This document shows positions 37,929-52,671 of a stretch of DNA of 64,000 bases, one piece after another. Made by a program: the position numbers and the translations under genes. Position 1 is the first letter of the stretch, and each line of letters opens with the position of its first letter. Origin of the DNA: Amycolatopsis marina. GTDB taxonomy: Bacteria > Actinomycetota > Actinomycetes > Mycobacteriales > Pseudonocardiaceae. A model generated the notes under the pieces. That model made no database searches and was not told the origin of the DNA. It saw only the letters and a list, made by a program, of their open reading frames with translations. The stretch spans positions 186,001 to 250,000 of the forward strand of contig NZ_FOKG01000010.1 in the NCBI RefSeq assembly GCF_900111885.1, given 5' to 3'.

Positions 37929-39611
37929 ATGGACAGGCGGTTGAACGCGGATCGCCGCGTCGCGGTGGTCGGCAACGGGCCGGTCGGGCAGACCACGGCG
38001 CTACTGCTCGCGCGCTGGGGCGTGCCCGTCGTGCTGCTGGACGCCCGTGCGGCACGGGACACGATCGGGTCGAAGGCCATCTGCCAGCAGCGGGATGTCC
38101 TCGACGTGTGGGAGTCGGTCGGCGCGGGGCGCCGGATCGCGGACGAGGGGGTCACCTGGACAACGGCACGCACCTTCTACCGCGATGAGGAACTGTTCGC
38201 CTACTCGCTACCGGATCCGGGCCGCTCGGCCTTTCCGCCGTTCGTGAACGTCTCGCAGGCCCGGACCGAGGAGATCCTCGACGAGCGGATCGCGGATCAG
38301 CCCCTGATCGACGTGCGGTGGGGTCATCGGGTGACCGCACTCGACCAGCGGGCCGACGGCGTGGTCTTCTCGTGCGCGACGACAGCGGGCTCCGTCGACA
38401 TCGAGGCCGCCTACGCGGTGGCGTGTGCCGGCGCCAGGGGCGAGGACATCCGGCGCATGCTCGGAGTCGGTTTCGCCGGGCAGTCCTTCGACGACCGGTT
38501 CCTGATCTGCGACATCGAGGCTGATCTGCCCGGCTGGGCGCACGAGCGGCGGTTCTACTTCGATCCGCGATGGAACCCGGGGAGGCAGGTGCTGATCCAC
38601 CCCTGCCCCGAATCGAGGTTCCGCATCGACTGGCAGGTCGCGGGTGACTTCGACCTCGACGAGGAGGAGGCCTGCGGCGCCCTGGACGCGCGCATCCGTG
38701 CGATCGTCGGTGAATTGCCCTACGCGATCGTCTGGAAGACGGTCTACCGCTTTCACTCCCGTCTCGTTGACCGGATGCGCGTCGGCCGGGTGCTGCTCGC
38801 CGGGGACTGCGCGCATCTGGTGTCCCCGTTCGGCGCGCGCGGGCTCAACAGCGGCGTCGGGGACGCGGAGAACGCGGCCTGGAAGCTGGCCTTCGTGCTG
38901 CACGGCTGGGCGGGGGAGGAGTTGCTGGAGAGTTACCACGACGAGCGGCACGCCGCGGCGAAGGAAAACCTGGACGTCACCACGGCGACCATGGAGTTCC
39001 TGGTGCCGCACGACGACAAGCACCGGCGGCGGCGGGTCGACGTTCTCACTCGCGCGGGCACTGATCCCTCCGTGCGGTCCCAAGTGGACTCCGGCAGGCT
39101 CGCCGAACCGTTCTGGTACGTGGACTCGCCCTTGACAACGCCCGATCCGAGCCGGCCGTTCGCGGGCAGGCCACCGCGCGGTTCCGTCCCGGCGCCGGCC
39201 CCCGGAGTGCTGGCACCCGACGTGCCGGTCCCGATCGCGGGGCCCACGTGCCGCAGGTTCCGCGAGATCGCCCGCGACGGCTTCCTGCTGCTCGCGGCAC
39301 CTCGCGTGGATCTGTGCGCGGTGCGTGCGGCGGCACGGCGAGCGGGCACCGGTCCGATCCGGGTTCTGGAGCTGGCCGGGATCGACGCCGGCGGAGCGCT
39401 GACCGAGGTGCTCGGAGCACGCGAGGACGAACTGTGGGTGCTCCGGCCGGACGCGTACGTCGCGGCGGTGCTCACCGCGCCCGGCGCGGCGGAGGTGCTG
39501 CACGCCCTGCGGCGCGCACACGGTGGATCCGGACCGCAGGTGATCAGGCGGACCTCTCCTGGCCGTCGCCGTGGCGCCCAGGCCGCTGTCGCGGCACCAG
39601 AGTGGGGTTGA
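37929..39611 (+). CDS. FAD-dependent hydroxylase, MhpA-like (3-(3-hydroxyphenyl)propionate hydroxylase family)
   Basis: 560 residues, seven bases after the MBL gene. FAD motifs: [20 protein letters not shown] at the N-terminus, and [20 protein letters not shown] followed by [22 protein letters not shown]-terminal thioredoxin-like domain (about residues 400-540) is typical of phenol/MhpA-type enzymes. They insert one oxygen into an aromatic ring using NAD(P)H. With the MBL protein, MarR and MHS importer this forms a small aromatic-acid uptake and hydroxylation module, but no ring-cleavage dioxygenase is in the window. Its 3' end overlaps the convergent clpX by 68 bases. Confidence 0.88.
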
Positions 39612-40839
39612 CGTTGTCGAGCACGGTGTCCCGGTCGATCACCACCGAAGCCACGTCGTCGCGACTCGGTACCTCGTACATCGTGTTCAGGAGGACCTCT
39701 TCGAGAATCGCACGCAGTGCCCGCGCACCGGTTCCGCGCAGTAGTGACTGCTCGGCGATCGCGGCGATCGCGCCCGAGGTGAACTCGAGTTCGACGTCGT
39801 CGAGCTGGAACAGCTTCTGGTACTGCTTGATCAGCGCGTTGCGCGGCTCGGTCAGGATGCGCACCAGCGCCGCCCGGTCGAGTGGAGCGAGGGTGGACAC
39901 CACGGGCAGCCGGCCGGCGAGTTCCGGGATCAGTCCGAAGTGCAGCAGGTCCTCGGGGCGGACATCGGCGACGGAGGGCGCCGTCTTGCACTCCCGCGGT
40001 CGGCCGTCTCCGGAACCGAAGCCGAATCCGTTGTCTCCGCATCGCTGCTGAACGATTCTTTCCAGTCCCGCGAACGCGCCACCGACGATGAACAGCACGT
40101 TGCCGGTGTCGAGCTGGACGAACTCCTGGTGCGGATGTTTGCGCCCACCCTGTGGCGGCACGTTCACGACCGCCCCCTCCAGAATCTTCAGCAGTGCCTG
40201 CTGGACCCCTTCACCGGAAACGTCGCGGGCTGTCGACGGGTTTTCGCTCGTGCGGGCGATCTTGTCGATCTCGTCGAGGTAGACGATCCCGGACTCCGCC
40301 CGCGTGACGTCGTGGTCGGCGGCGCGCAGCAACGCGAGCAGGATGCTCTCCACATCCTCGCCGACATAGCCCGCCTGGGTGAGTGCCGTGGCGTCGGCGA
40401 CGGCGAACGGGACGTCGAGGATCCGGGCGAGGGTCTGGGCGAGGTAGGTCTTGCCGCTGCCGGTAGGGCCGATCAGCAGAATGTTGGACTTGCCGAGCTC
40501 GACCGGTTCGTCGTCGGTCCTGTGTCGCCCCGCTGTCTGCTTCGCCCGAAGGATTCGCTTGTAGTGGTTGTAGACCGCGACGCACAGCGTGCGCTTGGTG
40601 TCCTCCTGCCCGACGACGTAGCGCTCGAGCGACTCGAAAATGTCCCTCGGCTTCGGCAGCTGCCGGGGTTCGCCGGAAGAGGACGGATCGGGCTCGTCGT
40701 GGATGAGTTCGTTGCACTGCTCGACGCACTCATCGCAGATGTGCACCGTGGATGGCCCCGCGATGAGCCTGCGCACCTGCTTCCGCGTCTTCGCGCAGAA
40801 CGAGCACCGGAGTTGGTTGTCACCAGCGTGGTGCTGCAC
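39544..40839 (-). CDS. clpX: ClpX-type AAA+ unfoldase, accessory paralogue
   Basis: 431 residues from a GTG at 40839, about nine bases after GAGGAGA. N-terminal zinc-binding domain [10 protein letters not shown] and [10 protein letters not shown]; Walker [21 protein letters not shown]; pore-1 loop [13 protein letters not shown]; Walker [18 protein letters not shown] loop [15 protein letters not shown]; sensor 2 [13 protein letters not shown]. The ClpP-docking loop, IGF in most ClpX, reads NGFGFG here, so Ile is replaced by Phe. The normal neighbours clpP and tig are absent, and the gene faces a TetR-type regulator. It is most likely a second ClpX, either with its own ClpP partner or acting as an unfoldase. 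Confidence 0.88.
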
Positions 40840-40878
40840 GTCGGCACGTCTCCTCAATCGAATGGACCGCGGGCAATT

Positions 40879-40910
40879 CAGATGTTCTTTCCAGATGATA
40901 TGAACATCTG
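40879..40910. promoter_or_regulatory. Operator-like inverted repeat between clpX and tetR
   Basis: CAGATGTTC (40879-40887) and GAACATCTG (40902-40910) are perfect 9-base arms with a 14-base AT-rich spacer. It sits in the divergent gap, 40 bases from the clpX start and 57 from the tetR start, so the TetR-type protein may control both genes through it. Confidence 0.7.
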
Positions 40911-40966
40911 CATGGTCAAGGTATCTTGATTCGGCACGAGCTGCAACGACAGTGGCGGGAGGACGC

Positions 40967-42079
40967 GTGGTCCGGCTCAGCAGGGCGGAGACGCAGGAGC
41001 GCAATCGCACCAAGGTGCTGTCCGCGGCCAGGGACGAGTTCGCCGAGCGGGGCTTTCGCGAGGCAAAGATCGATGTGATCGCCGAGCGAGCCGAGCTCAC
41101 CCGCGGCGCGGTCTACTCCAACTTCCCGGGTAAGCGTGCGCTGTACTTCGCGGTGCTGGCTGATCTCGCCGAGCAATGGACGGCGCCGGTGCGGGCGGAA
41201 CCCGGCCGGACCGCCCGCGCGGCGCTGGGCGCGCTCTCGCGAACGTGGATGGCGCGGCTCTCGCTCGACGACCTGGACGAACGGCACGGTGCGGGACGGC
41301 TCGGGTCGGAACTGATGTCCGAGATTCTCGCCGACGAGCGGTTCCGGCGGTCGTTCACACAGTTGATGAAGCTGGACGCGTTGCTGCTGGCGCTGGCGCT
41401 GGAGCAGTTGCGGCCGTCCGAGACGTCGCCAGACGGGCCGCCCGCGCGCCTGGGCAGACTGGCCGAGACGGTGCTGACGAACCTGCACGGCGCGAGCCAG
41501 CTGGCCGCCGCCGCTCCTGGCTTCATCGAGCCGTTCGACGTCGTCGGTGCCTGCGAACAGCTGGCAGGGCTTGCGCTCAACGACTGGTGGGCGCCCCCGC
41601 CGGTGGTTCCCCAAACCGTGGTGCTGGATCGGCACTGGTCCCCGCCTCCCGCGCTCGACGTGGTTCGGCGCGAGCCCGCGCACCTGACCGGGGGCGGTGT
41701 GGTGACTGTTCTCGGGCTGAACCGGCTGGCCGCGGCCGAGCAGGCGATTCGCGCCGCGCCCCGGGGATCGGCGGTGACCGTGGGCCTGGTGACGAGCGAC
41801 CGGGATGAACTCGCGCCCCTGGCCCGGTTGGTGATCGCCGATCTCGCGAGCTGCCTGCGCCAGGCCTTCCCCCGGTCGGCGTGGCCGCGCCTGCAGATCG
41901 TCTGTGACGAGAAGGGAGTCCTCGCGGCCGCGGCAGGCGTCGGGGCGATCAGCGACGAGACCGAGGTCGCGGTGCGGATCGAGGGCGGCAGACTCGTCGC
42001 CGCCGCCGAGGGGCCCGGCGCCGGTCATGCCGTAGCGGCCTCCACTGTGGACTCGCGGCCTTCGGTGACGAGTCACTAG
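40967..42079 (+). CDS. TetR family regulator fused to a peroxiredoxin/thioredoxin-like domain
   Basis: About 370 residues from the GTG at 40967, four bases after GGGAGG; a GTG at 40952 is also in frame. TetR HTH in the first 60 residues: [50 protein letters not shown] TetR ligand domain follows. From about residue 230 the sequence ([60 protein letters not shown]) resembles the AhpC/TSA fold with a lone Cys. This gives a total length almost twice normal TetR. Divergent clpX suggests stress-linked control. The fold assignment of the C-terminus is inference. Confidence 0.75.
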
Positions 42080-45305: not shown

Positions 45306-47138
45306 TCAGTCCTGCCCCGTGTCCGAGGCCAGCAACTCGCGCAGTTCGCCCACCGCGGCCCTGAGTTCGTCGGCGAACGCGTGCATCCTGTCGGCAACCG
45401 GCCGGGGCGTGCTCAGGTAGACGTTGAACCGGTCCGGAAGCAGCACATAGGCGACTCCGATGCACTGACTGCTGGTCGAGCCGAAACCGAAGAACCTGAT
45501 CCTGGTCGACGGTGCGGAACTCGTGCTCAGATAGTCGTTGCGCATGGTCAGCCAGCCGGGTGTTTCGTACAGGGCGAGCGGCTCGGCCGCTCCGAGCTCC
45601 TCGCCGTGGCGCTGCTGGATCAGCTGCAGTTCCCACAGATGTTGCTCTGGTGCCTGACCGGACTGGCATTCCTTGGCCCTGGCCACGTGCTTCTCCGCAG
45701 CGGCGCGGAACGCGCCTCGCCGGGTCGCGGGAGAAGCGGCTGAATCCTCCATCGCGTCGACGAAACGCACCACCTCCGGGGTCACGACCCGCATCGCCTC
45801 GGTACGCCCTCGGCGATACTGACGCGTCGCGATCGACTCGTACGTCGCACCGACGAAGCCCTTGGCGCGTCTGTGGGCAAGCTGGTAGGCCAGCTGCACG
45901 AAGGCGTCGGGGGAAACGCCGAGCGCCTTGGCGTCGTTCCCGCCGAAGTCCGCGAAAGACACCGTCGAGGTGGCGGTGTCGCCCGCCTGCTGGGCGAACG
46001 CGGCGGCAGCGGCGCGAACGTCCGCGCGCAACTCGTCGTCCAGGACGAACTCGACGGCCGCTGTGTTCGGCAGCCCCTGTGAGCGGGCGCCCGAGCGCCG
46101 GGAGTGTTCCTCGGGTGCCGAGCCCAGCATCGTGTCGACGAAGTTGAGGATCGTGGTGCCGTCCAGGCCGCAGTGCTCGACGTTGATTCCCGCCGTCCCG
46201 TCCTCGAAGACGATCAGGGACACGGCCTTGTCGAACCAACGGTTGGCACTGTCGCCGTGCAGCAACTGGTCGCAGGCCTGATGGGTGTCCTCAGGGGCGA
46301 AGTCCTCGAGGCACACGCAGAACAGGGCCGTTTCGATGGTGTCGAGGGCGTCGGTGTTGCCGGGATCGACCGTGGACAGCGCCTGCCTGCTCGCCGCCCA
46401 CTCCGCTCGCGCCTTGGTGGTGAGGTGCCCGACGGCGGAGTCCGGTGCGCAGCGTTCCGAGCCCGCTTTCCTGATCTCCAGCAGGCCGAGCGCGAGATCC
46501 TCCAGCGTATGCGGCACACCGTCAGGGCCCAGCACGTCGAGCCGGAACATGTTGCCGCGGAAGAACACCACGATGTGCCGGGCCGAGGACGGGCCAGGCC
46601 GCTCCGCGGAGTAGGGGACGCGGACGGTGTCCTGCACGGCCCCGGGAATGCGGGTGGCGGAGAACAGGTACTTGTTCTGCTCCATGGACAGCGCCTGTCC
46701 GCGCTGGATGTTCGGCGGGATCAGCTCCTCGTCGAGCAGCAGCTTGTAGTCGAGGGCGGCGGCGATCAGCCCCGCCGCCCGCTGCACCTGCTGCTGATCC
46801 GACTCCTCGAAGAGGAAGAAGAAGTTCGCGTTGAGTGCGATGCGATCGCGCCGGCCCAGGTAGCGCGCGGGCCAGAACGTGTCCAGCCAGCTGTGTACGC
46901 CCTCGGTCGTGTCGTACCGCTCAAGTGCGGCGTGGACGGTGCGAGCGGGACTGTCCGGCGCGAGGAACTCGGCGACGGCGTCCCGGGTCCGCGCCAGCTC
47001 TGCTTCCGTCAGCAGCGGTGCGGACCACTCGAGAAACCTCGCGCAGCTGTCCTCCAGTGTCGGCAACGGCACCCGGGGGAGACTGTCCTCGTTGCCGAAG
47101 GTGCGGGTGGACCATTCCTGCGTGCTGTTCACTGTCAT
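45306..47138 (-). CDS. Choline/carnitine O-acyltransferase family protein
   Basis: 610 residues. The ATG at 47138 overlaps the methyltransferase stop (ATGA); a GTG two codons later has GAGG well placed. Core motifs: LPRVPLPTLEDSCARFLEWS (first domain), ANFFFLFEESDQQQVQRAAG, ALSMEQNKYLFSATRIPG, catalytic His322 in GINVEHCGLDGTTILNFVD, and near the C-terminus the STS motif in DYLSTSSAPSTRIRFFGFGS then CIGVAYVLLPDRFNVYLS. Eukaryotic carnitine/choline acyltransferases are about this size. The enzyme should transfer an acyl group from acyl-CoA to a hydroxyl on a small, probably quaternary-amine, substrate. It is the last gene of a three-gene operon with an oxygenase and a methyltransferase. Confidence 0.9.
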   Translation of the reverse strand: MTVNSTQEWSTRTFGNEDSLPRVPLPTLEDSCARFLEWSAPLLTEAELARTRDAVAEFLAPDSPARTVHAALERYDTTEGVHSWLDTFWPARYLGRRDRIALNANFFFLFEESDQQQVQRAAGLIAAALDYKLLLDEELIPPNIQRGQALSMEQNKYLFSATRIPGAVQDTVRVPYSAERPGPSSARHIVVFFRGNMFRLDVLGPDGVPHTLEDLALGLLEIRKAGSERCAPDSAVGHLTTKARAEWAASRQALSTVDPGNTDALDTIETALFCVCLEDFAPEDTHQACDQLLHGDSANRWFDKAVSLIVFEDGTAGINVEHCGLDGTTILNFVDTMLGSAPEEHSRRSGARSQGLPNTAAVEFVLDDELRADVRAAAAAFAQQAGDTATSTVSFADFGGNDAKALGVSPDAFVQLAYQLAHRRAKGFVGATYESIATRQYRRGRTEAMRVVTPEVVRFVDAMEDSAASPATRRGAFRAAAEKHVARAKECQSGQAPEQHLWELQLIQQRHGEELGAAEPLALYETPGWLTMRNDYLSTSSAPSTRIRFFGFGSTSSQCIGVAYVLLPDRFNVYLSTPRPVADRMHAFADELRAAVGELRELLASDTGQD

Positions 47139-47995
47139 CCTCGGCGTCGGTTGGTGGGGGTTTCGGCGTTGGGTCGGGTCTGGCGCACGGGCCTCGAGAT
47201 ATGGAGCTGGGCGTAGAACCACCCTTCGGTCTCCAGGCCCGCCGGGTCGATGTCCTGGTCCGCCAGGGTGTCCAGGACGCGCATCTGCTCGTCAGGAGAG
47301 GCGAACCGGCGTTGCGGAAAGACGCGGTCGACACGGACGGTGTCGTAGCCGAGCCCGTCGAGATGCGCCGCGATCGGGTCGAACGGGAACATCCGCAGCA
47401 CGAAGTGGGCCATCCACGGCCGCCGTTCACCAGCGGCGGCGAGCACCCTGGCGATGGTCTTCACCGTGACGTAGCCGAGGCAACCGGTCGAGATGACGAC
47501 ATCGACCCCGGACAGCAGCTCGCGTTGCCGCTCGGTCGGTTCGTTGTCCTCCAGGTCGGCGTGCAGCACATCGTCGAGCAACCCGGCCTCGAGCGCGTAG
47601 GAGAGCGCGGGTTGTGAGCTGTCGAGCCCCACGAACCGGCTCCGCCGCTTCGCCCGTGCGTTTCGTGCGCCGAGCCAGGCCCGGTCGCGCGCCAGCAGTG
47701 CGCTCCTGGGTTGTTCGCGGACGTTGTCGTCACCGTAGCGGTCGTACAGTTCGTCCATCGTCACGTCATGTCCGACCAGTGCCGCGTTGATGCCGTAGGA
47801 ACAACCGACGTCGAGCACGGTGACGTCCGCGCACCCCCGCGTCAGGCGGTACTCCTCGATGAGGCCGGCGAAGTACGGCTTGGCCAACTCGGGAATCCGG
47901 TACTCGAAACCGCGCAGTGTGCGGAAGTACGCCCTCGGGTCCGGTTGCACGTAGATGTGGTCGAGCAGGACTTTCCCGGTGGCATCGGCGCGCAC
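47135..47995 (-). CDS. Class I SAM-dependent methyltransferase
   Basis: 286 residues from the GTG at 47995, with GAGGAGA eight bases upstream; an earlier GTG at 48082 would overlap the oxygenase stop. SAM-binding motif I is VTVLDVGCSYGINAALVGHD. Later come RFVGLDSSQPALSYALEAGL, DVVISTGCLGYVTVKTIARV and a C-terminal WMAHFVLRMFPFDP. An insertion of about 45 residues after motif I (DELYDRYGDDNVREQPRSAL) is unusual. No close family is recognised. Its place between a hydroxylase and a carnitine-type acyltransferase suggests N- or O-methylation of the shared intermediate. Confidence 0.82.
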   Translation of the reverse strand: MRADATGKVLLDHIYVQPDPRAYFRTLRGFEYRIPELAKPYFAGLIEEYRLTRGCADVTVLDVGCSYGINAALVGHDVTMDELYDRYGDDNVREQPRSALLARDRAWLGARNARAKRRSRFVGLDSSQPALSYALEAGLLDDVLHADLEDNEPTERQRELLSGVDVVISTGCLGYVTVKTIARVLAAAGERRPWMAHFVLRMFPFDPIAAHLDGLGYDTVRVDRVFPQRRFASPDEQMRVLDTLADQDIDPAGLETEGWFYAQLHISRPVRQTRPNAETPTNRRRG

Positions 47996-48062
47996 GAACC
48001 GTGTCTCCTCTGGGGATCTGGGGACGGACGAGGAACGGGTACTGGCGATCAGGGCCGCCGGG

Positions 48063-48932
48063 TCAGTCCAGCAGCCGGTCACCCCGCGTCGCGTGTCCCT
48101 CGGCGGCGAGGTGCTCGGGCAGCACGCGGCCGAAGAGCTGCTTCGTCCGCGATACGCTACCAATGACTCCCGGCCGCTCGCTGTAGGCGAAGATCACGGA
48201 GTGCCGCTCGGTCTCCCCGCGTACGGGACTCACCCGGTGCAGCGAGTAGCGGCCGGTGAACAGTTGCAGATCGCCTGGCCGTAGTGGCAGACGACGGATG
48301 AGGTCGTCACGGTGACCCGCCAGGACACCACTCACGTCGTCGAAGTTCTCCGCGTGCGCTGAGCGGATGTTGGGGCAGTACTCGAAGGCCCCGCCGTCCT
48401 CCGGTTCCTGGGTCAGCATGCTGACCGTGAACTCGTTCGTGTCGAAATGCCATGGATGCCCCCTTCCGGGAGTCACGACATTGAGGCACAGGGCGGACAA
48501 CGGGTCCGCCAGTTCGTGCACCTCGGGAAGATCGAAACAGCTGGCCACAAAATTCTGGAACAGATTATTCGTGTAAAGCTGGTGAATTAACAGATTGCCG
48601 GGAATCTGATCCCGTGCCACGAATGCGTTTCCGCGTTCCATCGTGGTTCGCCCCGGATGTCCTTTCGGCAACCGGGATTCCGTGGAGATGTTGTATGCGT
48701 TCACCACTTCGACGTCGAAATACGCCCTGGGTGCGACCTCGGCGCATTCCCGGCGCAGCCTGTCCTGCAGTGCCGGGCGGATGAAGTCGGGGAGTACGCT
48801 GCAGCCGAACTGGTGCAGATTCTGGCGAACCCGGGCCACCACGTTCTGCAGGGCCGCGCTTTCCGGCGCCCCCAGTGGATAGCGAACCGTATCGATGACG
48901 TCTTCGGCCACCTGGATGTCCACTGCGCTCAT
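48063..48932 (-). CDS. 2-oxoglutarate/Fe(II)-dependent oxygenase
   Basis: 289 residues. The facial triad is seen: His162 and Asp164 in GHPWHFDTNEFTV, and His232 in GRYSLHRVSPVRGE, with the 2-oxoglutarate Arg in ETERHSVIFAYSERPG. The jelly roll is preceded by a helical domain. Because the HxD is intact (not HxG/HxA) hydroxylation, not halogenation, is expected. It resembles proteins of the BesD/ArpA-like group that act on free amino acids; this is inference. First gene of the operon; the methyltransferase begins 67 bases later. Confidence 0.85.
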   Translation of the reverse strand: MSAVDIQVAEDVIDTVRYPLGAPESAALQNVVARVRQNLHQFGCSVLPDFIRPALQDRLRRECAEVAPRAYFDVEVVNAYNISTESRLPKGHPGRTTMERGNAFVARDQIPGNLLIHQLYTNNLFQNFVASCFDLPEVHELADPLSALCLNVVTPGRGHPWHFDTNEFTVSMLTQEPEDGGAFEYCPNIRSAHAENFDDVSGVLAGHRDDLIRRLPLRPGDLQLFTGRYSLHRVSPVRGETERHSVIFAYSERPGVIGSVSRTKQLFGRVLPEHLAAEGHATRGDRLLD

Positions 48933-49155: not shown

Positions 49156-49857
49156 CTACGCCGGCGGGACCGGCGGTGGGGGGAGCGGTTCGTCGGGGTC
49201 GACGACGACGCCCGCTGCCCGGAAGACGTGGTCCAGCGTTCCCCAGATCCAGCCGGAGAGGTAGTCGGTGAGTTCGGTCTGGGTGAGTCCCCGGGGCTCG
49301 GTCAGCCACCTGTCGGTGGCCGACTCCACGAAGCCCACCAGGCCGAAGGCGATCGGATCGGCGATGCGGGTGCTGAGGTCGAACGCGGCGAGGTACCCGG
49401 CGAGCAGTGCGCTCAGTTGGGTGCCGAGAGTCGTCTTGATGTCGGCGACGACGTCGCGCTGTCCCGGTGGTCCCGTGCTGGCTCGCTGTGTGAGATATCG
49501 GTAGAGGTTGGCGTGGTCGGCGAGCCAGCGCACCAGTGTTCGGACCGCCTGGCCGATCATGTGTGACGGCGGGCCGCCGGGATGGGTGAGCAGTGGCGCC
49601 ATCTCCGCGATGATCAGCTCCGCGGCTCTGAGGCCGACCGCGTGGTGCAGGTCCTCCGCGTCCTGGAAGTGCCGGTACAGCTGGGGCCGGGCGACGCCGG
49701 CGTGCTTCGCCACCTTTTCGGTGGAGACGGCGGGGCCGTGCGTCTCGATCGCCGCGATGGCCGCTTCCACGAACTCGGCGCGTCGTTTGGCGCGCTGCCC
49801 CGTCCAACGGGACGAGCGCCGGTCCGGCAGTTTGGCTGTCGAGCTGCGGTCGGGCAC
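49156..49857 (-). CDS. TetR family transcriptional regulator
   Basis: 233 residues. HTH near residues 25-75: RAEFVEAAIAAIETHGPAVS, TEKVAKHAGVARPQLYRHFQ, DAEDLHHAVGLRAAELI. The C-terminus ends in a Pro-run (PLPPPPVPPA). It is divergent from the AurF-like oxygenase and FprB-like reductase and most likely represses them; its C-terminal domain resembles those in fatty-acid or xenobiotic-sensing TetR proteins (DYLSGWIWGTLDHVFRAAGV). Confidence 0.88.
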   Translation of the reverse strand: MPDRSSTAKLPDRRSSRWTGQRAKRRAEFVEAAIAAIETHGPAVSTEKVAKHAGVARPQLYRHFQDAEDLHHAVGLRAAELIIAEMAPLLTHPGGPPSHMIGQAVRTLVRWLADHANLYRYLTQRASTGPPGQRDVVADIKTTLGTQLSALLAGYLAAFDLSTRIADPIAFGLVGFVESATDRWLTEPRGLTQTELTDYLSGWIWGTLDHVFRAAGVVVDPDEPLPPPPVPPA

Positions 49858-50018: not shown

Positions 50019-50927
50019 ATGACCAGTTCCGCAGCGCAGTACCAGGGCACGAGCTCGGACGAGGACGTCTCACGGCGCCTGCTGGACTCGGCCGCGATGT
50101 TGTCCTACGACCCGGCTACCGAGGTGGACTGGGAGTCGCCGCTGCCCGCCGACCTGTACGGGCTCAACCCCGAGTGGAGCACGCTGTACGGGACGCCGCT
50201 CTGGGATGAGATGAGCGAGGAGCAGCGGGTGACGCTCACCCGCCACGAGGTGTGCTCGATCATGAGCACGGGGATCTGGTTCGAGATGATCCTGCAGCAG
50301 ATGGTGCTGCGCGATCAGTACGCCAAGAACCCCGGTAACCCCGAGTTCCAGTTCGCGCTGACCGAGATCGCCGACGAGTGCAGGCACTCGATCATGTTCG
50401 CGCGCGCCTGCGAGAAGATGGGCGTGCCCGCGTACTTCCCCGGCCGGGGGACGATCGAACTCGGCCGGGTCTTCAAGACCGTGGCGTCGGCCGAGGTCGC
50501 GTACGGGGGAATCCTGGTCGCGGAAGAGGTTCTCGACGTCATGCAGCGGGACTGGATGCGCGGGGAGAACGTGCTGCCGGTGGTCCGGACGACGAGCAAG
50601 ATCCACGTCGTCGAGGAGTCGCGGCACATGAAGTTCGCCCGCCAGGAGATTCGTGAGCGGATGGAAGGGGTCGGCGCGACCCGCCGGTACACGAGCAGTG
50701 TGGCCGTCGCGGCCGGTGCGTACTTCATTATCAAGAACCTGGTGAACAAGGGAGTCTATGCCGCCGCGGGCCTGGACACCGAGCGAGCGCTGGATGCGGT
50801 GCGGCGCAACGAACACCACAAGTCGATGCTGCGATCCAGCTGCGCGCACCTGATGGATTTCCTGGCGCAGTCCGGGCTGCTGACGAAACCTGCGATCTCG
50901 ATCTACAAGAGCATCGACATGCTCTGA
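50019..50927 (+). CDS. AurF-like diiron oxygenase
   Basis: 302 residues. Diiron carboxylate ligands appear as HEVCSIMSTGIWFEMILQQM, TEIADECRHSIMFARACEKM (ExxxH), VAEEVLDVMQRDWMRGENVL and KIHVVEESRHMKFARQEIRE (second ExxxH). AurF oxidises p-aminobenzoate to the nitro compound; relatives act on other amines or on fatty chains. It is followed 40 bases later by a fused ferredoxin/ferredoxin reductase that can supply electrons, a good functional pair. Hydrophobic stretch VAVAAGAYFIIKNLVNKGVY near the C-terminus may touch the membrane. Confidence 0.85.
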   Translation: MTSSAAQYQGTSSDEDVSRRLLDSAAMLSYDPATEVDWESPLPADLYGLNPEWSTLYGTPLWDEMSEEQRVTLTRHEVCSIMSTGIWFEMILQQMVLRDQYAKNPGNPEFQFALTEIADECRHSIMFARACEKMGVPAYFPGRGTIELGRVFKTVASAEVAYGGILVAEEVLDVMQRDWMRGENVLPVVRTTSKIHVVEESRHMKFARQEIRERMEGVGATRRYTSSVAVAAGAYFIIKNLVNKGVYAAAGLDTERALDAVRRNEHHKSMLRSSCAHLMDFLAQSGLLTKPAISIYKSIDML

Positions 50928-50967
50928 ACTTCGAACAGGCGAACAGGACGAGGAACGGCACCGGCCC

Positions 50968-52671
50968 ATGGCATTCGCGATCACCCAGACCTGTTGCAAT
51001 GACGCGTCGTGCGTGTCGGTGTGCCCGGTCAACTGCATCCACCCGACTCCGGACGAGCCGGACTTCGGCACCACGGAGATGCTCTACGTCGACCCACGGA
51101 CCTGTATCGACTGTGGCGCCTGCGCCGACGCGTGCCCGGTGGACGCGATCTTCCCGGTCGACCGGCTGATGGGGCCGGACAGGGTCTACGCCGAGCTCAA
51201 CCGGCAGTACTACGACACCCATGACGTAATAGACACCGAAGACACCGAAGACACCGGCAGCGCCGGCAACACGGACAACGCCTGGGGGAAGCCGCGGTTC
51301 CCCCGGTCGCTGCCCCATGAGGTGGGCACGCTCCGCATCGCGGTCGTCGGTACGGGTCCCGCGGCGTCCTACGCGGCGCAGTCCCTGCTGCGGACCACCG
51401 GCGCCGAGGTGACGATGATCGACCGGATGCCGGTGCCCGGCGGCCTCGTGCGGTTCGGGGTCGCGCCCGACCATCCCTCGACCAAGAAGGTCGGGGACAG
51501 CTTCGCCGCTCTCTACCGGCACCCGAGGCTGAACCTGCAGCTGAACGTCGACGTGGGCACCGACGTCACCCATGCCGAGATCATGGCGCATCACCACGCC
51601 GTCATCTATGCCGTGGGCGCCGCGAACGACAGGACGCTGGGTGTTCCCGGTGAGGACAAGGCCGGCAGCATCTCCGCCACCGAGTTCGTCGGCTGGTACA
51701 ACTCCCACCCGGACATCGACCCGGACGCCGTCGACCTCTCGGCCACGCGTGCCGTGGTGGTGGGCAATGGAAACGTGGCGCTGGATGTCGCGCGCATCCT
51801 CGTCACCGATCCGGATCGGCTCGCGGCGACGGACATCGCGGACCACGCGCTGGCCGCGCTGCGCCGGAGCAGGGTGCGTGAGGTGGTGGTGCTCGGGCGC
51901 AGGGGGCCCGGGCAAGCCGCCTTCACCCGCCCCGAGTTTCTCGCGCTCCGGCAGTTGCCCGGCGTCGACGTGGTCGTCGACGACCACGTCGACGCCGGGC
52001 GTGCGGCGATCGCCTCGGCCGGGCCGGGCTCCAAGGCCGCTCTGTTCGGCGACGTACCCCTGGTGAAGGTGGACTGGTCGGCACCGCCTCCGGAGGGCAG
52101 GCGCATCGTGTTCCGGTTCCGCTCCGCGCCGTCGGCGCTGTGCGGCGACGAGCGGGTGGACTCGGTGCGGGTGGTGCGCGACGCCGGCTCCGGGCAGGAG
52201 TCGCATGTGGACGCCCTGCGGGCGGGACTGGTCATCAGGTCCATCGGCTACCGCAGTGCGCCGGTCCCGGATCTGCCGTTCGATGAGGCCACCGACACCG
52301 TGCCGCACAAGGCCGGCCGGGTGACCACGACGGTGACGGGGGAGCACCTCCCCGGCACCTACGTCGTCGGCTGGGTCAAACGCGGGCCGTCCGGCGGGAT
52401 CGGTGCCAACAGAACGTGTTCGGCCGAAACCGTCGACAGTCTTCTCGACGATGCCGCAGCGGGCAGGCTGCCGGAGCCTGCCGGTTCCGCACGCGAATTC
52501 GCCCGATTGGTCCGGCGCCGCCAGCCCGATGCCCTCGGCAGGCGGGAGATGCTGGCGATCGACCGCGCCGAGCGCAGGCGCGGCGTGGAATCCGGGCTGG
52601 ACAGGCCGCGCGTCAAGTTCGCCACGGTGCCCGATCTGCTCCGCGCGGGGCGGCGGTTCGGCGGGCGGTAG
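50968..52671 (+). CDS. fprB: Ferredoxin-ferredoxin/NADP reductase fusion, FprB-like
   Basis: 567 residues. Residues 1-75 hold two 4Fe-4S cysteine sets: CCNDASCVSVCPVNCIHP and CIDCGACADACPVDAIFP. A short acidic linker DTEDTEDTGSAGNTDN follows, apparently a small hexamer duplication. Then comes an adrenodoxin-reductase/FprA-like flavoprotein: RIAVVGTGPAASYAAQSLLR, GGLVRFGVAPDHPSTKKV, VVVGNGNVALDVARILVTDP, YVVGWVKRGPSGGIGANRTC. Mycobacterial FprB has the same layout. It transfers electrons from NADPH via the fused ferredoxin, likely to the AurF-like oxygenase upstream. Confidence 0.92.
   Translation: MAFAITQTCCNDASCVSVCPVNCIHPTPDEPDFGTTEMLYVDPRTCIDCGACADACPVDAIFPVDRLMGPDRVYAELNRQYYDTHDVIDTEDTEDTGSAGNTDNAWGKPRFPRSLPHEVGTLRIAVVGTGPAASYAAQSLLRTTGAEVTMIDRMPVPGGLVRFGVAPDHPSTKKVGDSFAALYRHPRLNLQLNVDVGTDVTHAEIMAHHHAVIYAVGAANDRTLGVPGEDKAGSISATEFVGWYNSHPDIDPDAVDLSATRAVVVGNGNVALDVARILVTDPDRLAATDIADHALAALRRSRVREVVVLGRRGPGQAAFTRPEFLALRQLPGVDVVVDDHVDAGRAAIASAGPGSKAALFGDVPLVKVDWSAPPPEGRRIVFRFRSAPSALCGDERVDSVRVVRDAGSGQESHVDALRAGLVIRSIGYRSAPVPDLPFDEATDTVPHKAGRVTTTVTGEHLPGTYVVGWVKRGPSGGIGANRTCSAETVDSLLDDAAAGRLPEPAGSAREFARLVRRRQPDALGRREMLAIDRAERRRGVESGLDRPRVKFATVPDLLRAGRRFGGR

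Follow-up and report, generated by a model that had tools for sequence, protein, structure and literature searches.

An oxygenase–acyltransferase pair with an optional methyltransferase in Amycolatopsis marina and other actinomycetes, and its probable use of an acceptor other than carnitine

The sequence considered here is a window of 64,000 nt from Amycolatopsis marina (contig NZ_FOKG01000010.1, positions 186,001 to 250,000 of the forward strand), and all coordinates given below are those of the window. Three genes for an oxygenase, a methyltransferase and an acyltransferase lie head to tail on its minus strand in the order OXY, MT, CAT, and are referred to as the cassette. An earlier interpretation made from the letters alone (the sequence-only reading) had described this arrangement, including the ATGA overlap of the last two genes, and had proposed that the operon may make an acylated, hydroxylated and N-methylated amino acid, as a zwitterionic lipid or a mimic of acyl-carnitine. 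The arrangement is as it described:

48063–48932, minus strand: OXY, a predicted Fe(II)/2-oxoglutarate oxygenase of the HalD/BesD clan, hydroxylase type, 289 aa (Pfam, AlphaFold, VIA-align)
47135–47995, minus strand: MT, a predicted class I S-adenosylmethionine (SAM)-dependent methyltransferase with a conserved two-helix insertion after motif I (start at GTG 47995 inferred)
47135–47138, minus strand: ATGA overlap of the MT stop and CAT start (DNA sequence)
45306–47138, minus strand: CAT, a predicted choline/carnitine acyltransferase, 610 aa (Pfam PF00755, alignment to CrAT, CPT2 and COT)

None of the three proteins has a match in NCBIfam. CAT matches PF00755 over profile positions 1–573 of 574 (E 1.9e-162; 542.3 bits, cut-off 22.3), by which it is classed as a member of the choline/carnitine acyltransferase family, full-length as had been claimed, and it is the product of the only PF00755 gene in the genome.

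The linkage of OXY to CAT is close. Among 297 sampled genomes of the Pseudonocardiaceae, CAT was found in 103, any match to OXY in 105 and a match to MT in 85. Judged from coordinates, OXY lies directly upstream of CAT and on the same strand in 101 of the 103 CAT genomes. The 194 genomes lacking CAT contain an OXY match in only four cases, namely G158 (interrupted by an internal stop, E 3.2e-62), G284 (a fragment, E 7.8e-20), and weak matches in G154 and G002. The association gives a Fisher p of 2e-78, a figure that, like the E-values, ignores the kinship of the genomes. Weaker or partial matches were excluded from the linkage count: for OXY these were G158, G265:C290, G280:C57, the second of G237, G275:C46 and C202, G284, G019:C1, G154, G002 and the other part of G185 (C38), and for MT two fragment rows of G102. 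The pairing extends well beyond the family. A search of genome contigs with CAT supplied 80 loci, the best 80 of 319 relatives, which belong to Actinomadura, Streptomyces, Nocardia, Frankia, Saccharopolyspora, Amycolatopsis, Actinokineospora, Micromonospora and other genera; with 30 loci of the family sample (the best 30 of 103, the A. marina locus included) these make 110 CAT loci carrying 100 distinct CATs (ten sequences occur twice), and every one of the 110 has OXY upstream of CAT in the same orientation. So near-obligate a pairing means that CAT most likely depends on the product of OXY.

The sequence-only reading had called carnitine-type acyltransferases rare in bacteria. This is borne out at the level of the phylum, where 5 of 396 sampled genomes have a CAT (three full cassettes, a divergent CAT in G435 and one partial match, E 4.5e-5), and CAT is found in none of 14 control genomes (0/14), but not within the Pseudonocardiaceae, where 103 of 297 genomes carry it. 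A search of plasmids with CAT gave no match.

MT is a loose member of the set. In the 101 genomes with the OXY–CAT pair it lies between the two genes in 58, after CAT in 12 and elsewhere in 3, and is lacking in 28; it also occurs without CAT in 11 genomes of the family sample, and the neighbours of these stand-alone genes share nothing clear. The lack of conservation in other genomes that the sequence-only reading had named as grounds against it is clearly not seen for a unit built on OXY and CAT (101/103), but MT as an equal partner in it is not supported (30/103 without). Where MT and CAT adjoin, the junction varies: among 91 pairs, 85 were resolved (6 not), and these comprise 31 four-base ATGA overlaps (that of A. 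marina included), 43 gaps, 4 longer overlaps, 5 in-frame fusions (4 distinct) and 2 cases with MT after CAT. In G284 (L129:7644–8720) a short end piece of OXY is followed by MT and the genome has no CAT match; the locus looks like a decayed cassette.

The genes flanking the cassette change from genus to genus (neighbour clusters of 81 loci), so the cassette stands alone. Membership of a larger cluster was considered and rejected on the same ground, as the largest groups of common neighbours (18 loci upstream and 12 downstream, of 81) are all Actinomadura by record titles. In A. marina one further gene precedes OXY:

49156–49857, minus strand: TetR-type regulator, directly upstream of OXY and on the same strand (open reading frame; TetR name from sequence reading alone)

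A TetR-type gene in this place is common, among the 81 loci, only to L036 (Amycolatopsis palatopharyngis), and it is not part of the conserved unit.

CAT was aligned to chains of CrAT, CPT2 and COT. The numbers and roles of H343, K419 and K423 of CrAT are those given in PMC11852590; the other CrAT numbers were fitted to the aligned chains. The catalytic His322 (CrAT H343) and the STS motif at 538–540, both picked out by the sequence-only reading, are found in 110 of 110 cassette CATs, and the same is true of each of Y93 (CrAT Y107), Y433 (Y452), T446 (T465), F552 (F566) and K404 (K423). S540 and F552 are the equivalents of CrAT S554 and F566, which we take to hold the trimethylammonium end of the substrate. 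The site of CrAT R518, the arginine of the FDRHL stretch, presumably binds the carboxylate of carnitine. It is Arg in the aligned CrAT, CPT2 and COT chains but Gln499 in all 110 cassette CATs, and differs also from the Asn that we assume for choline acetyltransferase. With the carboxylate-binding arginine replaced by glutamine and the other pocket residues kept, CAT seems suited to an alcohol that resembles choline or carnitine but in which the carboxylate is absent or placed elsewhere.

The acceptor is thus probably a carnitine- or choline-like alcohol that is not carnitine itself. Carnitine was rejected as the acceptor on account of the Arg to Gln change, and a close mimic with the same carboxylate is likewise not supported. 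A literal acyl-carnitine route, or one to a carnitine-like zwitterionic lipid, is suggested by the family of CAT and by the three activities; set against Gln in 110 of 110 CATs, and against an OXY of the HalD/BesD clan and not of the gamma-butyrobetaine hydroxylase type, it is highly improbable.

Three CATs outside the OXY-linked set may be compared at the same site. Those of G040 and G074 also have Gln. The first (L127:4410–8889) is preceded by genes that Pfam identifies as an amino-acid permease and a ROK-type regulator, and the neighbours of the second (L128:4268–8741) begin with nearly the same residues as the L127 genes. The unlinked CAT of G435 (L164:7501–9204) has Arg. This divergent actinobacterial carnitine-type acyltransferase is 28% identical, its genome has no OXY at E 1e-30, and it is possibly a true carnitine enzyme. 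The position that we take to be the acyl gate, Met564 in CrAT, is Phe550 in 109 of 110 cassette CATs. Acyl chain length is not predictable from this residue, as the neighbouring Gly551 could open another pocket.

OXY matches the Pfam family HalD, PF23169 (56.6 bits, cut-off 26; E 3.2e-15). Its AlphaFold model (pLDDT 91.7) superposes best on HalB, HalA, BesD, HalD and the lysine hydroxylase 7jsd, with Z of 20.4–21.2 (VIA-align), followed by 9oet, a partial chain of the same lysine hydroxylase (Z 17.7), and then by a group at Z 16.3 and below. Identity to BesD, HalA, HalB, HalD and 7jsd is 15–20%, and a profile search gave weak matches to HalD, HalB, HalA and the lysine hydroxylase (best E 3.1e-4). 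The intact HxD...H triad that had been noted in the sequence is H162-x-D164...H232, and is unchanged in 91 of 91 OXY sequences (each >250 aa). OXY shares with BesD, HalA, HalB, HalD and 7jsd the fold, the metal-site histidines and an aligned Arg taken as the 2-oxoglutarate contact. It differs from the halogenases, the aligned chains of which have Gly at the site of D164, in having the hydroxylase-type Asp at the metal, and since this ligand is present in 91 of 91 sequences a BesD-type halogenase was rejected. From the lysine enzymes it differs at the next position, which is Asp in these and Thr165 in 90 of 91 OXYs. It is also set apart from BesD, HalA, HalB, HalD and 7jsd by a signature, ADP...WHFD...FxGRxSLHRV, common to the relatives of OXY described below. 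On these features OXY is classed as an Fe(II)/2-oxoglutarate oxygenase of the HalD/BesD clan and of the hydroxylase kind.

Solved structures of this clan among the matches to the OXY model have, by their descriptions, lysine, ornithine or glycine bound in free form. OXY might likewise hydroxylate a free, unmethylated amino acid, which CAT would O-acylate while MT methylated its carboxylate or some other group, and the route would then contain no quaternary ammonium. The frequent absence of MT would fit such a scheme, as would the permease adjoining the OXY-less CAT of G040 and the nearly alike beginning of a neighbour in G074. It is harder to reconcile with the retention in all 110 CATs of S540 and F552, with Thr165 in place of the Asp of the lysine enzymes, or with the company kept by OXY relatives (Fae and lyases lacking the MIO triad, see below). 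We consider it unlikely, though the most probable of the alternatives.

The open frame of MT spans 47135–48163 on the minus strand. In relatives that have their own start, it falls at about codon 56 of this frame, and AGGAGA precedes GTG 47995; for these reasons the gene is most likely 47135–47995. Some tblastn matches reach further upstream, to codon 2 (e.g. L005, L032), but where the frame overlaps the OXY gene these may only echo conserved OXY DNA, and the start at 48163 was rejected. Motif I reads LDVGCSYG. The match to Pfam Methyltransf_12 is under the cut-off (21.1 bits against 30; E 5.5e-4), and the AlphaFold model (pLDDT 88.7) resembles many class I methyltransferases, with Z up to 13.1 and no single nearest family (VIA-align). 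The Rossmann-like fold of the model, together with motif I, marks MT as a class I SAM methyltransferase. The unusual insertion that had been remarked upon is seen in the model as two helices (about residues 81–113 of 287) that follow the motif-I helix and precede the next strand, and by alignment is common to the MT family.

Relatives of OXY occur without a full-length CAT in 14 genomes of the phylum sample (best E between 9e-95 and 3e-37), and their neighbours are informative. Three such loci include Fae, the formaldehyde-activating enzyme (PF08714, E 1.9e-43, 8.4e-46 and 1.7e-37); of two Fae proteins tested against NCBIfam one_C_fae, one was above the cut-off and the other at 116.0 against 118.05. 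In the family of G506, OXY at E 1e-20 is found in 22 of 100 genomes, and in 22 of 22 loci Fae lies downstream of the OXY relative on the same strand and within about 0.3 kb. Fae-linked loci are L168–L189 (these 22), and also L156, L157, L159–L161, L163, L167, L212, L213 and L216–L219; four of L156, L157, L159–L161, L163 and L167 are the same places as loci in L168–L189. In some of them the OXY relative overlaps the Fae gene. A formaldehyde handler adjoining a 2-oxoglutarate oxygenase is a usual sign of oxidative demethylation, and the combination is a probable oxidative demethylase operon, of which no description was found among the open-licence PubMed Central papers listed.

The company is more mixed in the family of G327, where 30 loci (one each for the best 30 of 48 genomes with a match) include Fae in 6, a 3-hydroxyisobutyrate-dehydrogenase-like gene in 6 and an M24 metallohydrolase in 4, with 14 of the 30 having none of these within about 1.5 kb. 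OXY relatives adjoin an M24 hydrolase at L152, L153, L155, L191–L193 and L208; the nearest NCBIfam model to the L155 protein is that of the DMSP lyase DddP (239.7, cut-off 600). In the Pseudonocardiaceae, two OXY paralogues (L124:6898–12441 and L123:53–3352, each with a LysR-type gene upstream, by eye) adjoin genes of the aromatic-lyase family to which ergothionase (6s7j) belongs. Both lyases of L124 are without the MIO triad, and so is ergothionase, according to PMC13405746. The L124 lyases are nonetheless nearer to histidine ammonia-lyases than to ergothionase (E 3.9e-77 vs 8.8e-40, and 8.2e-50 vs 8.2e-35), and such a lyase is not part of the cassette. Ergothionase, the subject of PMC13405746, releases trimethylamine from a betaine. 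Both the formaldehyde handler and the lyases thus point to N-methylated substrates for the relatives.

The place of the cassette OXYs among these relatives was examined in a tree of 84 rows, 23 of them cassette OXYs, with an arbitrary root; among the relatives, repeated-locus rows, L165 and L166 (which are cassette loci), inner-stop rows and rows of <200 residues were excluded. The cassette OXYs form one clade (support 100/100), which groups under that root with four M24-linked OXYs (99/91). Residues kept at >=90% (at least 90%) across the OXY groups are Y80, D143-P144, W161-H162, D164, R190, G227-R228, H232-R233-V234 and R243. H159 is almost confined to the cassette clade; T165, N166 and E167 occur in this clade and its nearer kin.

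Taken together, these results are consistent with a self-contained biosynthetic operon in which an N-methylated substrate of amino-acid type is hydroxylated and then O-acylated, with MT contributing methylation, and this is the reading we prefer, at slightly less than even confidence. The order of the steps is inferred because an alcohol-forming oxygenase stands directly before a member of an acyltransferase family for alcohols next to a quaternary nitrogen; hydroxylation followed by O-acylation, as the sequence-only reading had it, is the best interpretation of the near-obligate pair. With Fe(II), O2 and 2-oxoglutarate, OXY would introduce a hydroxyl into a small substrate of amino-acid type, the nitrogen of which is most likely N-methylated (quaternary ammonium), and the resulting alcohol would take a position equivalent to that of the choline or carnitine hydroxyl. 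The onium nature of the substrate, also part of the earlier proposal, draws its support from the genomic company of the OXY relatives. CAT would then transfer an acyl group from acyl-CoA to the new hydroxyl, with His322 as general base, and MT, where present, would methylate that molecule too, with nitrogen as the simplest site. The predicted product is an O-acylated hydroxy-betaine and not an acyl-carnitine. A fitting candidate for the acceptor is a beta-hydroxylated alpha-trimethylammonium amino acid, which has the N-C-C-OH of choline with its carboxylate elsewhere; such a placement would account for the missing carboxylate-binding arginine.

Several observations weigh against this reading. 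An MT match at E 1e-10 is lacking in 30 of 103 CAT genomes, 28 of which have OXY, so that N-methylation is not always carried out by this operon; in such genomes either a methylated precursor comes from elsewhere or the substrate is unmethylated. G040 and G074 have CAT with neither OXY nor MT. The link to lyases is weakened by L125, a close relative of the lyase-linked OXYs with no lyase match in its 15 kb. The Fae- and lyase-linked clades are, where measured, about 30–36% identical to the OXY of the window, and cassette H159, T165 and E167 correspond to L, Q/M and D in the Fae clade. Because these active-site columns differ, the clan may share its general chemistry but the cassette substrate need not match that of the relatives. 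Matches to Fae, M24 and the dehydrogenase are absent from all 133 cassette loci (0/133; 102 of these loci are 8 kb or longer), and a lyase match occurs in one (L031). Finally, the site of K419, one of the two CoA-phosphate lysines of CrAT, is occupied by A, S, T or G in 108 of 110 CATs, and for this reason the donor may be other than plain CoA.

The last point speaks for an alternative in which the acyl group, a polyketide or fatty acyl chain, would come from a carrier protein, and CAT would off-load it onto the hydroxylated small molecule. Carnitine-acyltransferase domains exist in fungal polyketide synthases, where they reportedly off-load chains. The other lysine site, K404, is unchanged in 110 of 110 CATs, and no neighbour is common across genera (no family search aimed at carrier proteins was made); this alternative appears very unlikely.

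The company of the relatives suggests yet another scheme, with OXY an oxidative N-demethylase, CAT acylating a pre-existing alcohol, both acting on the same onium compound in series, and MT opposing the demethylation. It is favoured by the family of G506, in which the OXY relative is immediately followed by Fae at 22 of 22 loci. Membership of the cassette OXYs in the Fae-linked, putative demethylase clade was considered, but they form a separate clade (100/100) grouping with M24-linked OXYs, and Fae is not matched at any of the 133 cassette loci. The scheme would also leave the rarity of CAT without OXY unexplained, and we regard it as improbable.

Two further features of the window stand apart from the cassette. 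At 50019–52671 on the plus strand, a diiron oxygenase-like protein, AurF-like by eye, is followed by a ferredoxin-reductase fusion. At 39544–41100 on the minus strand, amid unrelated genes, lies a ClpX-like ATPase with a zinc-finger N-terminus (by eye), which could be a second ClpX.

The families to which the three proteins belong are known, but no description of the operon, or of a bacterial carnitine acyltransferase with such partners, was found among the open-licence PubMed Central papers listed. CAT resembles CrAT, COT, CPT2 and choline acetyltransferase in its whole-length match, the catalytic His, the STS motif, the Tyr and Thr residues of the alcohol pocket and one CoA lysine, and is unlike CrAT, COT and CPT2 in Gln499 at the Arg518 site, Phe550 at that of Met564 and the loss of the K419 site. 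The eukaryotic carnitine pathway leads from trimethyllysine to carnitine and on to acyl-carnitine, and the cassette repeats its logic of methylation, 2-oxoglutarate-dependent hydroxylation and O-acylation. It differs in that the oxygenase is of another clan, the acceptor arginine is lost and the methyltransferase is optional; the likeness is one of logic and not of shared origin of the operon.

To our knowledge, the activities known so far for the HalD/BesD clan are the halogenation and the hydroxylation of free amino acids. Through the link to Fae, one of its branches would gain oxidative demethylation as a function. The clan could conceivably hold a large, hitherto unrecognised branch of onium-betaine oxygenases with two limbs, an extension that we regard as doubtful. 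One limb, found in other actinobacterial families that include many members with small genomes, would N-demethylate its substrates and pass the formaldehyde to Fae; the other, in soil actinomycetes and joined to a refitted CAT, would make a new bacterial class of O-acyl hydroxy-betaines, parallel to acyl-carnitine and with a role of their own in storage, membranes or signalling.

For the actinomycetes themselves, many soil species probably carry a two- or three-gene set that hydroxylates and then acylates an amino-acid-like molecule, which is very likely other than carnitine. Their choline/carnitine acyltransferases gain a constant partner, OXY, and with it a route to finding their function, as whatever OXY makes should be the alcohol that they acylate. 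Should the substrate indeed be an onium compound, the cassette would represent a new class of acylated metabolite in genera that are used for drug discovery.

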